NCBI GenBank assembly: GCA_005223125.1
Contig: NJBH01000021.1
Span: 1 to 63,024 of the forward strand
From: Promethearchaeota archaeon Loki_b32
GTDB lineage: Archaea > Asgardarchaeota > Lokiarchaeia > Sigyniarchaeales > SOKP01
DNA: 63,024 nucleotides
Direction: 5' to 3'
In this document: piece after piece, positions 36,272 to 42,207 of the stretch
Numbering within the stretch: position 1 is the stretch's first letter
How the letters are laid out: every line of letters begins with the position of its first letter
Notes under the pieces: model-generated
Database searches by the model: none
Told to the model about the DNA's origin: nothing
What the model saw: only the letters and a program-made list of their open reading frames with translations
Made by a program: the position numbers and the translations under genes

Positions 36272-36778
36272 ATGATGGATAACCAAAAAGATAAACGTCA
36301 AAATGATAAAAAAGTAATTATCAATTGGTTAGCACATCATAATCCAAATCGCAATGATTTCGATGATCACGTAATTTATATATTTAACCATGCTATATGT
36401 TTAGGATGTTTTGCTTTTCTTTTAGGAGCTACTGTCGCGTTAATAATAGGAAATGGATTTTATTTTTACATTATAAATTTTATTAGTCTGCCTATTACTC
36501 TCATGTTCTTCTTGTTATGTTGGAGCCCCTCAATTTTCCAGTATTTAATTCAAATAATAAGAAATAAGCCATTCAAAAATCGAAGAGTAAAATTCCTATG
36601 TCGTGTACTTTACCCAATTGGGAGTATCATATTTGTATTTAAATCTCCATTCTGGGGTCTAGGTATTTCTATTGCTGCTGGTTATATGATAATAGGTATT
36701 AGAAAAATATTCTATAAAAACAAAACTTTAATCTCAAAACGTAAATTAAGAAATCAAAATTTTACTCCAGAAATCTAA
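36272..36778 (+). CDS. DUF2085-like small membrane protein
   Basis: 168 residues with four to five hydrophobic segments. The N-terminal region HHNPNRNDFDDHVIYIFNHA, followed by ICLGCFAFLLGA, recalls DUF2085 proteins, which carry a conserved His/Cys pattern before the first helix and a CxGC motif. The tail is basic. It follows the zinc-ribbon membrane protein in the same direction and may be co-transcribed. Function unknown; the DUF match is by eye. Confidence 0.6.
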   Translation: MMDNQKDKRQNDKKVIINWLAHHNPNRNDFDDHVIYIFNHAICLGCFAFLLGATVALIIGNGFYFYIINFISLPITLMFFLLCWSPSIFQYLIQIIRNKPFKNRRVKFLCRVLYPIGSIIFVFKSPFWGLGISIAAGYMIIGIRKIFYKNKTLISKRKLRNQNFTPEI

Positions 36779-37034
36779 GACTTTGTCATGCGAGGCTATT
36801 TTTTTTTAGTATTGATATCAGAAAATCAACAGTTCAAATAATTAATTTTTATCTAAGATTTTAGAAGCTGATTAGTAGAATCTGATGAGAATTTAATAAC
36901 ACTTTTCTTTAAAATTAAAGAAATAAATTTATAAAATGATAACAATTTTAATAATTTCTTAACGACTATTGCTTAAAACAAAGGAAATAATAAAAAAAAA
37001 GAAAAATTAGGATTTTGTATTAAAATGGGATGAT

Positions 37035-37244
37035 TTAAAAATACTTAATTGCAAGTAAAATGTCGTCCCTTGTTATTTTCTTACGCTTTGCATGCTTCGT
37101 GAGTGTTAGGGCAGTTTTGGTAAGTTTTTCAGCGCTTTTACTCATCCAATCAACTAACTCATTAACGGCATCTCGAGCAACAATAACAGCTCCATTGTGC
37201 TTCATTAGCCGTCTGATAGGACTCCACGAAATATATTCGGCCAT
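37035..37244 (-). CDS. Archaeal histone
   Basis: 69 residues with a complete histone fold: helix 1 (SPIRRLMKHNG), loop 1, long helix 2 (RDAVNELVDWMSKSAEKLTK), loop 2 with KRKKITRDD and helix 3 (ILLAIKYF). The length and KKxTRDDI motif match HMf-type archaeal histones, which dimerise and wrap DNA. The residues before helix 2 read GAVIVARDA, aligned with GAERVSDDA of HMfB. It starts with ATG at 37244. A second copy lies 0.87 kb away within a tandem duplication. Confidence 0.95.
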   Translation of the reverse strand: MAEYISWSPIRRLMKHNGAVIVARDAVNELVDWMSKSAEKLTKTALTLTKHAKRKKITRDDILLAIKYF

Positions 37245-37338
37245 TTTTTTTTTCCTCTACTATATAGTTATTTTCTTTAATTTTTATTGAAATTTGTTAT
37301 TTTTTAAGAGTTTGTTACATACATATACATCTTTTAGA

Positions 37339-37346
37339 TATTTAAA
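37339..37346 (-). promoter_or_regulatory. Probable TATA element of histone gene 1
   Basis: On the minus strand, AAAAATC precedes TTTAAATA about 95 bp before the histone ATG. The same sequence is preserved in the duplicated copy at 38240-38247 within an otherwise diverged leader, supporting a BRE/TATA role. The position implies a long 5' leader of roughly 65-70 nt. It could instead be conserved only by recent duplication. Confidence 0.45.
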
Positions 37347-37907
37347 GATTTTTATTCATACATAGTTTTATGGAGAAAAAAATAGAAACAATTGAACGAC
37401 AAAATTCGGAATTAAGAAGATGATCAATCTCGTGAAAGTTAAGATTTTTTCATGGAAATTATTATTTCTGCTTGAAATTGAAACTGTGTATTATATTATC
37501 TTTTCAATTTTCTGTCAGTTATGCAAAAAAAGTAAAATTGAAAAAAATAAAGAAAAAATAATCAAATTGTGAAACGTAAAATTATCTTTTTTTTAAGAAT
37601 CTGTGACATAAAAACTGATATTTTCATATTAAAAATTAGAGCGATAGAGTCATTAACATTAAAGAATTAGGGATAAGTATTCTGTTAATAAACTCTTCCT
37701 CAGTAAAAGATGCTTTTTCAATCAACCCCTCATATTCAAAGAAACTAGTTGCCCAGTAAATTCCGTATTATATTATTTGTATAAATTTAACTATTTTGTT
37801 AGGAAAAGATTATCAACTAAAAAATCAAGAATAGAAAAAAAAAGAAAAAATTATAAGATTTTTATAGGTTCATTAATTTCCTCGAAGGCTTGGCTGAACC
37901 AAAAAAG

Positions 37908-38147
37908 CTAAAAATACTTAATTGCAAGTAAAATGTCGTTCCTTGTTATTTTCTTACGCTTTGCATGTTTTGTGAGTGTTAGGGCTGTTTTGGTAAGTTT
38001 TTCAGCGCTTTTACTCATCCAATCAACTAACTCATTAACGGCATCTCGGGCAACAATTTTAGCTGGCGAATAAGAGTTTTATTAACCTAAAGCTCCATTG
38101 TGCTTCATTAGCCGTCTAATAGGACTCCAACTAATATAATCTGACAT
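37908..38147 (-). pseudogene. Histone gene 2, interrupted by a 30-nt in-frame insertion with two stop codons
   Basis: ATG at 38147 gives MSDYISWSPIRRLMKHNGA (19 codons, ending in GCT). A 30-nt segment with tandem TAA TAA at codons 22-23 follows. Then, in the same frame, KIVARDAVNELVDWMSKSAE continues through TRNDILLAIKYF to TAG at 37908-37910. Removing exactly 30 nt restores a 69-residue histone differing from copy 1 by only four residues (A2S, E3D, V20K, D/N in the third helix). No other defect is present. It may be a recent pseudogene, or expressed through an unusual step such as intron removal or ribosome bypass. Call depends on expression data. Confidence 0.75.
38061..38090 (-). other. 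30-nt insertion flanked by AGCT direct repeats, hairpin-forming
   Basis: AGCT lies at 38061-38064 and 38091-38094, so the insert is one unit of a 4-bp direct-repeat-flanked block. In coding orientation a GCT codon (codon 19) precedes it and an identical GCT (codon 29) ends it. Between them lie TTA GGT TAA TAA and a potential hairpin with stem AATAA/TTATT, loop AACTC, and an outer GG/CC pair. Matched codons around a stop-containing hairpin are the layout of known ribosome-bypass elements; a repeat-flanked insertion is the simpler explanation. Confidence 0.7.
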
Positions 38148-38239
38148 AATAAATTTTTCCTCCACGTTTTTTTATTTTTGATTTTAATTTTTAATTTTTG
38201 ATTAAATTAAATTAACTAAATATATATAGATCTTTTGTA

Positions 38240-38247
38240 TATTTAAA
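38240..38247 (-). promoter_or_regulatory. Probable TATA element of histone gene 2
   Basis: TTTAAATA (minus strand) preceded by AAAAATC, at the same place relative to the start codon as in histone gene 1. It is intact despite divergence of flanking bases, so the second copy may still be transcribed. Confidence 0.4.
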
Positions 38248-38671
38248 GATTTTTATTCATACTTAGTGTAATAGAAAAAAAAATAAAAAAGATCAAACGA
38301 CAAAATTCGAAATTATAAAAATATTCAATCTCGTGTAAGTTAGAACATTTTCATGGAATTATTATTTCTGCTTGAAATTGAGACTTTGAATTATATTATC
38401 GTTTCAAAATTCTCTCAGATATGCAAAAAAGATGATGGTGAAAAAAACAAAGGAAAAATAATCAAATAGTGAAACACAGGATAAATAAATTTTTGAAGAT
38501 CTACTATATGATTTAATTTTAAAATTAGGGACTATAGCTTCTTTAAGATTAAATTACTCTATCATATTGAAAAAATTGAAGAAAATTTTAATGTAATACC
38601 ATTTAACTTAATCAATTTTTAATTGAAAAGAAAATTCAATTAAATTATTACAGTTAAGAATTTAAGTACAC

Positions 38672-39115
38672 TTAATATCTTGGTAAATCTTTCGTTTCTT
38701 GATAATATGATTCGATACCTATTTCTTTCATTCGATTATTAATTTGAATCCATCTTTGCTTAAGATGGGAATCAAAATTAGTTTTTTCGCAAGGAAACTC
38801 ATCACATTGGAAGCAAAAATCTACACCTTTATCTTCATAACAGTCTCTAACACCACAGTCAGGATACAAGCAAGAACCTTTTCTACATCCAAGACAATTC
38901 TCTTCTGTTAAATAAGTGAGTAATGCTTTGAAAGAAGGATATTCTTTAAATATCGGGAGGAATGATGAAAATCTTTCAGCGTATATATCGAAGGACCCTA
39001 ATAGCTCTTGAAGTTTAACACTACTTTTTCTTATTCCACCTTCAGAGTTAGCAAAACATTTATAACAATTAAGCCCACATGGGGCAAGCTTGTTTAATAT
39101 ATCTTTATATTCCAT
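38672..39115 (-). CDS. DUF3795 cysteine-rich protein
   Basis: 147 residues with the DUF3795 pattern: LAPCGLNCYKCFANSEGG at the N-terminus, CLGCRKGSCLYPDCGVRDC in the middle and FCFQCDEFPCEKT near the C-terminus. The many paired Cys suggest zinc or cluster binding. The family is common in archaea and anaerobic bacteria, with no assigned reaction. It stands alone, with no operon partner. Confidence 0.85.
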   Translation of the reverse strand: MEYKDILNKLAPCGLNCYKCFANSEGGIRKSSVKLQELLGSFDIYAERFSSFLPIFKEYPSFKALLTYLTEENCLGCRKGSCLYPDCGVRDCYEDKGVDFCFQCDEFPCEKTNFDSHLKQRWIQINNRMKEIGIESYYQETKDLPRY

Positions 39116-39238
39116 TTTCTTTTCTTATTTCATTTTTTTTCTTATTTTATACGTGAGTAATTGAAATATTCACAAGAAGATTTACCTTGTCTATAGAAGA
39201 TTTTAAATAGGTAAATTAAAAATATTGTTTTAATCTTT

Positions 39239-40240
39239 TTACCAGACGTTTTGTTCGTAATTACAATTTTGACATTCAACAGACTCGTTTTTTTGAGGAA
39301 AATACGGAAGAATTGCTCCACAATTCTTACACTCTAAATCATGAACTTTATCTTTAGAGTTTACAACTCCATTCAATATCAAAAATTGTTTGAAATCATT
39401 TGTAACTTGGGTTAAAAAGGATATTAATAGATATTGATTTGGTGATGAAGCTATTATTTCAATTTTATTTGACACTATTCGTCCGACTGCTAGAATATCT
39501 TCTTTAATTACAGATTCCGTACCAAAATACCATAATATTCTTTTTTCAACATCTTTAGCAACTAACTGAAAATTATGGATTGAAAAAAGTTGTTCTAAAA
39601 TGTCATAAATTATTTCAGAATGTACTTGGTGCTCAATTCCGATGCCCATACTCTTAATAACTTTCTTAATTCTCGGTTGTTGTGAGAATTCTCTTATGTA
39701 ACTTGAAGGAACTACTTTAGGCTCAATTGATATTTTATCAATAGATATTTCTACTGGTCTTGAATCCAATACTCTAACGGTATCTTTATTATTTACATAA
39801 GTAACAATTGTTCTAAGTTCTCCTGTTTTATCTAGAGCATTTGGGGCAAGATGAAGATGAATTTGTTTACTGCTCTTTTCATTTAATTCATCGAATTCTA
39901 AATTTATTTGATTAGTATCTTCATCAGATGTCATACGAGGAATACTGATTGTAGGAGGAAAGGCTCTTATGAGTGTTAAAAATTCTGGTAACTTTATTTT
40001 AATTTTCATTTCGGTTATGGGGGCTAAACTTTGATTAACGATTAATATTGAGTATCGGAAATGACCTCCAAAAGGAGAATAAGTACACCTGCACAAAATT
40101 TTATTCTCTTGATCTACACTCTCAAATGAGTATTGATCTGCTTTTTTTCTTTTAGTATCTTCTTTCTCTTTAAAAAGTACTAAATCCTGTGTCTTGAATT
40201 GGCTTAATCCTTTCTCTTTTTTAGGCATAATATTATACAA
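39239..40240 (-). CDS. Ig-like/adaptin-appendage-like protein with C-terminal zinc ribbon
   Basis: 333 residues; ATG at 40228 is an alternative start. Residues ~55-175 read as a beta-sandwich (FRYSILIVNQSLAPITEMKI; ISIPRMTSDEDTNQINLEF; ELRTIVTYVNN), with a conserved-neighbour pattern typical of clathrin-adaptor and coatomer appendages. Residues ~205-300 form a mixed alpha/beta module (EIIYDILEQLFSIHNFQLVA; NKIEIIASSPNQYLLISFLT), like the appendage platform. The end is a zinc ribbon (CKNCGAIL..VECQNCNYE). The appendage comparison is inference from strand order only. No membrane segment, so probably cytoplasmic. Confidence 0.6.
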   Translation of the reverse strand: MYNIMPKKEKGLSQFKTQDLVLFKEKEDTKRKKADQYSFESVDQENKILCRCTYSPFGGHFRYSILIVNQSLAPITEMKIKIKLPEFLTLIRAFPPTISIPRMTSDEDTNQINLEFDELNEKSSKQIHLHLAPNALDKTGELRTIVTYVNNKDTVRVLDSRPVEISIDKISIEPKVVPSSYIREFSQQPRIKKVIKSMGIGIEHQVHSEIIYDILEQLFSIHNFQLVAKDVEKRILWYFGTESVIKEDILAVGRIVSNKIEIIASSPNQYLLISFLTQVTNDFKQFLILNGVVNSKDKVHDLECKNCGAILPYFPQKNESVECQNCNYEQNVW

Positions 40241-41058: not shown

Positions 41059-41550
41059 TTGAAAGTTGAAAAAGATATAATTCTATTTGTCAATCTTGAC
41101 GTTTTAGACGAAATTAAACGATGTGTTAAGAAAGCGTACCCTAATGAAGCCTGTGGCTTAATTTTTGGTACAATTCTTGAAAAAAAAAAACTCAATAGTG
41201 AAAATGAATATTCTTATCACTATTATGGTTATAAATTTGAATGTATTGAATCTTCACGAAAAAGTCCAGTTGCTTTTTTAATGGATGATTATAATAAATT
41301 AGTAGAAATCTCGAGTAAATATTCTAATGACTACAATTATCAATTACTTAGTATATTTCATTCTCATCCGGGTAGTGCTTATCCAAGTGGAGTAGATATT
41401 CCATATATGAAAAGTTATTATAAGAGTGGTATATCTAAATTTAAATATTTAATTTGGACCATTATGGATATGAATAGTGAAGAATTAAATGGGTTTATAT
41501 ATATTTTTGATGAACTTAAGCAAATATCAATTCAGATTAAAAAAGAATAA
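41059..41550 (+). CDS. JAMM/MPN+ metalloprotease
   Basis: 163 residues from a TTG start. The zinc protease motif is complete: Glu in PNEACGLIFG, then FHSHPGSAYPSGVD (HxH...S..D), one residue shorter between H and S than the usual HxHPx6SxxD. In known members this site removes ubiquitin-like proteins or cleaves peptides and cysteine adducts. A stand-alone domain of this size resembles archaeal and bacterial JAB proteins. It converges on the proteasome beta gene, with only 15 bp between the stops, which hints at but does not prove a link to ubiquitin-like/proteasome turnover. Confidence 0.88.
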   Translation: MKVEKDIILFVNLDVLDEIKRCVKKAYPNEACGLIFGTILEKKKLNSENEYSYHYYGYKFECIESSRKSPVAFLMDDYNKLVEISSKYSNDYNYQLLSIFHSHPGSAYPSGVDIPYMKSYYKSGISKFKYLIWTIMDMNSEELNGFIYIFDELKQISIQIKKE

Positions 41551-41565
41551 TCTATTAAAAAAGAA

Positions 41566-42207
41566 TCATTCCGTTTGAGAAAAACCGTTTTTATCAATTG
41601 TACATAATTGAATTTTATATCCAGAGCCAGCATCTCTTTCTCGGGAGCTAGAAATTGCTGTTTTTATAAGCTCAATACCCTTAGCTTTAGTTAAATTAGG
41701 CTTCCAGTCCGCTTCTAGCACACCAAGACTAAAAGGGCTACCGCTTCCAAATGATATAAAGCTATCCTCCTCATACAACGTACCTAGAAGATCGATCCCA
41801 TAAAGTTTTCCAGATTTTTCTTTACGTGAAAAACCGCCGATTAAGATCATTGAAACGAAAAAACTTCTGCCGCTGAATAATATATTACGACAAATGCTAG
41901 CTACATATTTTGGTTCGGGAACTCTCTCTTCCTCAACTTCTTTTAACCGAGATAATGCCTTTAATTGATTAACTACATATGAACAATCTGCCACACCCCC
42001 GGCAATAGTTGCAGCGGTATATTTATTAATTTCAAATAACTTCTGGGCTTGTTTGGACACTACGAAGGTTCCTGCAGTCGCCTGACTATCTGTGGCAACA
42101 ACTACTCCGTCTTTAATCATAATCCCGACTGTTGTTGTTCCTGTTTGAAGCATCTTCTCATATTGTTCATGATCCAATTGTTTCTTATTAAAATTATTTT
42201 CCATCAT
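41566..42207 (-). CDS. psmB: Proteasome beta subunit
   Basis: 213 residues. A propeptide of about 24 residues ends in G before the catalytic Thr (QTG|TTTVGIMIKDG). Catalytic Asp17 and Lys33 are in ATDSQATAG and KQAQKLFEI, and the SRERDAGSG segment provides the distal Asp/Ser. It forms the proteolytic beta rings of the 20S core after self-cleavage. No alpha subunit lies in the window. Transcribed divergently from the S8e gene. Confidence 0.96.
   Translation of the reverse strand: MMENNFNKKQLDHEQYEKMLQTGTTTVGIMIKDGVVVATDSQATAGTFVVSKQAQKLFEINKYTAATIAGGVADCSYVVNQLKALSRLKEVEEERVPEPKYVASICRNILFSGRSFFVSMILIGGFSRKEKSGKLYGIDLLGTLYEEDSFISFGSGSPFSLGVLEADWKPNLTKAKGIELIKTAISSSRERDAGSGYKIQLCTIDKNGFSQTE

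Follow-up and report, generated by a model that had tools for sequence, protein, structure and literature searches.

The tandem histone genes and their 30-nt insert

The window, a 63,024-nt stretch of DNA, is a contig of a Lokiarchaeal genome whose closest named relatives are Candidatus Lokiarchaeota/Lokiarchaeia MAGs. Its minus strand carries a tandem pair of archaeal histone genes (Pfam PF00808): copy 1 spans 37244-37035 and copy 2 spans 38147-37908. The pair is part of a duplication whose period is about 0.9 kb (Table 1). The two copies align end to end at 94% identity, and the sole interruption is a 30-nt in-frame insert in copy 2 that contains two in-frame stops, TAA TAA; the remainder of the gene is open. 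This alignment bears out the preliminary description of copy 2 as intact but for the insert. Upon removal of 38059-38088, copy 2 encodes 69 residues with four substitutions relative to copy 1 (A2S, E3D, V20L and D60N), in agreement with the length and number of changes described before. The insert had been placed at 38061-38090 between AGCT repeats, which is one among several near-equivalent alignments; structure and protein family favour 38059-38088, two nucleotides off that register. An Rfam search gave no match in 36500-39500.

Table 1. Features of the histone locus and of the predicted intron in copy 2.
Feature	Position	Strand	Remarks
Histone copy 2, predicted exon 1	38089..38147	-	59 nt; ATG to GCT TT, the last two nt being the first two of the 5' bulge
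BHB mini-intron AGGTTAATAAAACTCTTATTCGCCAGCTAA (predicted)	38059..38088	-	30 nt; in-frame TAA TAA; unique in 19 same-genus genomes at <=3 mismatches
Histone copy 2, predicted exon 2	37908..38058	-	151 nt including the TAG stop
BHB central helix, 5' strand AGCU	38091..38094	-	within exon 1
5' bulge UU|A	38088..38090	-	predicted cut between 38089 and 38088
Intron stem, 5' arm GGUUAAUAA	38079..38087	-	8/9 paired with 38065-38073
5-nt loop AACUC	38074..38078	-	identical to the loop of site A in genome G014
Intron stem, 3' arm UUAUUCGCC	38065..38073	-	
BHB central helix, 3' strand AGCU	38061..38064	-	within the intron
3' bulge AA|A	38058..38060	-	predicted cut between 38059 and 38058
Histone copy 1, uninterrupted tandem duplicate	37035..37244	-	69 aa, Pfam PF00808
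Copy 2 upstream region	38148..38502	-	Shine-Dalgarno-like GTGGAGG and TATA-like CTTTAAATAT, both common to copy 1

Synonymous and non-synonymous changes between the two copies number 7 each (omega 0.25). Half of the differences are therefore synonymous, not most of them as had been stated; amino-acid changes still fall below the neutral expectation. The duplicated flanks are 79-82% identical, compared with 88-95% for the coding stretches, and all four residues in which copy 2 differs from copy 1 are present in other family members. Taken together, these values argue that copy 2 has been under constraint during much of its history at the least. Beyond the one insert it contains no second lesion, and it retains its start as well as the Shine-Dalgarno-like and TATA-like elements. 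We thus found neither relaxed selection nor further disabling mutations in copy 2.

A predicted BHB fold and the residue restored by excision

The BHB motif consists of two 3-nt bulges and a separating 4-bp helix, with relaxed forms in which some bulge or helix is missing (PMC3978253), and its cleavage position lies between bulge residues 2 and 3 (PMC2738675). The RNAfold minimum-energy structure of the unspliced copy 2 RNA includes a BHB core (z = -2.5) made up of a 4-bp helix AGCU/AGCU, 3-nt bulges UUA and AAA on opposite strands, and a stem-loop within the insert. The fold does not take the strict hBHBh' form, a subtype that is not required of the family: the inner helix is present (GGU/GCC), and the outer helix CAAU/AUUG is displaced by an unpaired GG. 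Relaxed BHB forms have been documented among the natural substrates of alpha2beta2 endonucleases.

Among 21 registers of the copy 2 insert, the one that combines a fully Watson-Crick helix (4/4) with a family residue places Leu at position 20. In 63 distinct relatives this position is occupied by I (26), V (23), L (8), E (5) or M (1), whereas Lys, the residue that results from the excision originally proposed, occurs in 0/63. Cutting between bulge nucleotides 2 and 3 restores both the reading frame and the conserved protein: GGA GCU UU is joined to A AUU, and the product reads ...KHNGALIVARDAV..., in which residue 20 is Leu.

The genome encodes two EndA paralogs, one of the catalytic and one of the non-catalytic type. 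In EndA alpha the Tyr, His and Lys positions are retained, and its best matches are EndA chains 3p1z and 3ajv, the Aeropyrum pernix enzyme; EndA beta is devoid of the catalytic His. The presence of both paralogs points to a hetero-oligomeric (alpha-beta)2 EndA, and the genome also encodes one RtcB ligase. The alpha/beta arrangement has been tied to broad specificity, to non-canonical tRNA introns and to the cbf5 intron (PMC4090602, PMC12397907, PMC2738675).

In the proposed pathway, the copy 2 transcript would fold by pairing the AGCU of exon 1 with the one close to the insert's 3' end, so that UUA and AAA bulge out. A heteromeric EndA of alpha plus beta would cleave each bulge between nucleotides 2 and 3, and RtcB would ligate the exons into ...GGA GCU UUA AUU..., which would encode the 69-residue histone (NGALIVARD); the predicted spliced junction is GGAGCTTT joined to AATTGTTGCC. 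From these sequences we infer that the RNA may be cut and joined, and the histone produced, in the cell.

Inserts in related histone genes and introns in tRNA genes

The preliminary description had proposed looking for the insert in relatives. The copy 2 insert itself did not occur elsewhere in 19 same-genus genomes (<=3 mismatches); two of these genomes, G008 and G014, have 30-nt histone inserts at other positions. In both, an orthologous histone gene is interrupted by two such inserts (sites A and B), neither at the position used in copy 2; the inserts carry three TAA stops and one TAG. The gene has 72 codons (L037:1001-1264 and L036:1264-1001, from two species), and the two loci are 97% identical over 150 bp upstream and 83% over 150 bp downstream. 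Between L036 and L037 there are 2 synonymous and 4 non-synonymous changes, too few for a selection test. Among the genomes searched, interrupted histone genes of the copy 2 type are present in only 3/19 of the genus and 3/79 of the order, a count that rests on exact patterns and that divergent cases could escape.

Site A has the helix TGAA/TTCA and the bulges AC|U and AA|A, and its excision restores K-H-N. For site B the helix is CACG/CGTG, the bulges are AG|C and AA|A, and excision restores T-R-N. Both flanks contribute to each of the junction codons, C|AT at site A and AG|A at site B. At both G014 sites and at G008 site A, the perfect-helix register is unique among 21 and coincides with the residue-restoring one, while G008 site B has a G.A in place of one central pair, which leaves 3/4 paired. 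A 4-bp helix between two opposite-strand 3-nt bulges was found in copy 2 and at both sites of G014. At site A a 2x2 mismatch adjoins the 5' bulge, the flanking helices of site B are weak, and the BHB fold at these two sites lies 1.8-1.9 kcal/mol above the free minimum. Comparison of G008 with G014 reveals two changes at site A, both in the loop, and two at site B, one in the bulge and one that breaks an end pair of the central helix. The layout 1+9+5+9+4+2 nt and the 3' bulge AA|A are common to all three histone insert types. The structure exceeds what chance would give: when each insert was shuffled, a Watson-Crick BHB helix of 4 bp combined with 7/9 or more stem pairs, at most 3 nt away from the correct register, arose at frequencies of 7.6e-4 (copy 2), 6.0e-4 (site A) and 6e-5 (site B), which are partly post hoc because the 9-5-9 layout was first noticed in the same sequences. 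Since the interrupted copies are placed apart from each other in the histone tree and the uninterrupted copy 1 is sister to copy 2, the simplest reading of the sequences is that histone genes would have gained inserts at least two separate times.

At least three tRNA genes of the genome that contains the window, those for tRNA-Arg(CCU), Ala(CGC) and Gly(UCC), have 30-nt introns with the same 1+9+5+9+4+2 layout. A layout scan of DNA from this genome, performed without tRNA input, recovered the tRNA-Arg(CCU) gene (L055:5920-6023; G000:C37, about 65920-66023) with its 30-nt T-loop intron in the context ...GGGGGTTCAA|TGTGAAATGTACTTCACATTTCATGAACAA|ATCCCC..., and ARAGORN recognises this gene solely after excision of the 30 nt. 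In their shared size and architecture, the histone inserts thus match the organism's own tRNA introns. A MAFFT alignment of the 37-nt intron cores was not gap-free.

Several further tRNA genes in this and related genomes exceed the usual length by about 30 nt, with relaxed motifs, and many tRNA genes of the genus measure about 101-105 nt (L082, L084, L086, L089, L090, L223-L240), consistent with introns near 30 nt. When the loops at 38074-38078, at L037 sites A and B, and in L055, L078, L083 and L090 were compared, the 5-nt loop began with A and ended with C in 6/7 distinct 9-5-9 30-nt introns (AACUC, AACUC, AAUUC, ACUUC, AUUUC and AGGAC), the exception being AUUUA in the L090 candidate. This pattern may reflect common origin or recognition.

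To look for other interrupted genes, 1.18-1.23 Mb was sampled from this genome and its relatives. A de novo scan of 1.18 Mb for BHB-interrupted coding frames (16-45 nt) returned 148 candidates, compared with 104 in a parallel-complement control, and none was convincing. The strict 30-nt layout scan of 1.23 Mb yielded no further convincing interrupted gene, and syntenic tblastn for stop-bearing inserts returned the histones and antisense noise and nothing else. Since about a fifth of this genome was sampled, further interrupted protein genes may exist.

Interpretation and relation to known BHB introns

The BHB geometry, the restored protein and the related inserts together argue that the copy 2 insert is very probably a tRNA-type archaeal BHB intron within a histone pre-mRNA, as in the mini-intron option of the preliminary description. 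The alternative of a pseudogene, in which a redundant tandem copy was broken by a random 30-bp insertion and yields no full-length histone, draws on the intact copy 1 just 0.9 kb away and on the uninterrupted histone copies that G008 and G014 also retain. Because each genome has such a copy and the inserts keep the frame at 30 nt, the cell could afford to lose the interrupted gene. Random insertion, however, would not be expected to produce two more histone inserts in the genus with exactly 30 nt, the same layout and restored residues, nor is the absence of a second lesion in copy 2, with its expression-signal-like elements kept and its four specific residues all drawn from the family, what decay would predict. 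We consider a pseudogene unlikely.

Identical GCT codons on both sides of the insert and a hairpin over the stops had also suggested programmed ribosome bypass, as in phage T4 gene 60, with take-off at one GCT, skipping of the stops and landing at the second. Matched in-frame codons are limited to the copy 2 insert: at sites A and B, CAT and AGA straddle the junction, and codons assembled from both flanks make codon hopping impossible and cut-and-join possible. Bypass would also leave the Lys that no relative has at position 20. Moreover, AGCU is self-complementary, so both strands of the palindromic central helix read alike and give the appearance of a direct repeat with matched GCT codons. 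These observations render bypass very improbable. The same palindrome is a simpler explanation of the 4-bp direct repeat at the insert borders than the AGCT target duplication of a fresh insertion, which had been raised as well and which we considered as a small, unspliced mobile element. Sites A and B show no border repeat, no second copy of the copy 2 insert exists in the 19 same-genus genomes, and the site A insert is confined to its own locus in the same genomes (<=3 mismatches in both searches); we give a mobile element next to no credence.

As a BHB intron, the insert would belong to a kind that is already known and that includes the cbf5 mRNA. The cbf5 pre-mRNA intron occurs in Crenarchaeota (Sulfolobales and Desulfurococcales) (PMC2738675) and its splicing has been demonstrated, whereas splicing of the histone transcripts is predicted. 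The putative histone introns further differ from it in their gene and host (the Lokiarchaeota/Asgard phylum), in their size of always exactly 30 nt, and in having more than one insertion site per gene family, with two introns in one gene of ~70 codons. They share the motif and the predicted enzymes with archaeal tRNA BHB introns, including those at non-canonical positions (PMC4090602), but interrupt an mRNA and build the outer helix from coding sequence instead of tRNA arms. HVO_1309 of Haloferax volcanii likewise has an mRNA BHB site, in that case processed by EndA, but it lies in the 5' UTR and leaves the reading frame uninterrupted (PMC7714728). The archaeal-virus elements of Peng et al., as cited in PMC2738675, resemble the histone inserts as short, fixed-size, frame-keeping inserts proposed to be introns; they are viral and 12 bp long rather than 30, and their splicing, as cited there, is proposed only, as it is here. 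According to a 2020 study, cbf5 was at that time the sole other reported BHB intron in archaeal mRNA besides that study's own 5' UTR site (PMC7714728). Within the open-access literature searched, splicing of an archaeal protein-gene mRNA by tRNA enzymes is confirmed for only one gene, and we found no report of BHB introns in histone genes or Asgard mRNAs.

Asgard archaea are not known to have spliceosomal introns. A broader proposal, which we regard as possible though rather doubtful, is that tRNA-type BHB introns recently and repeatedly entered Lokiarchaeia histone mRNAs as a standard 30-nt module with 9-nt arms and a 5-nt loop. If true, this would imply an intron-gain process in a eukaryote relative, for example one in which excised tRNA introns are reverse-spliced and then reintegrated, and the amount of histone made may hinge on EndA splicing. 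The three histone insertion sites in Asgard would add a second gene for tests of archaeal mRNA splicing in the archaea nearest to eukaryotes, and would permit tests of mRNA intron gain. Gene callers will label genes that bear such inserts as truncated or as pseudogenes, which calls for caution in annotation. Elsewhere in the window, a JAMM-like ORF (41059-41550) adjoins a proteasome beta-subunit-like ORF (41566-42207) on the opposite strand, as judged by eye from their translations.
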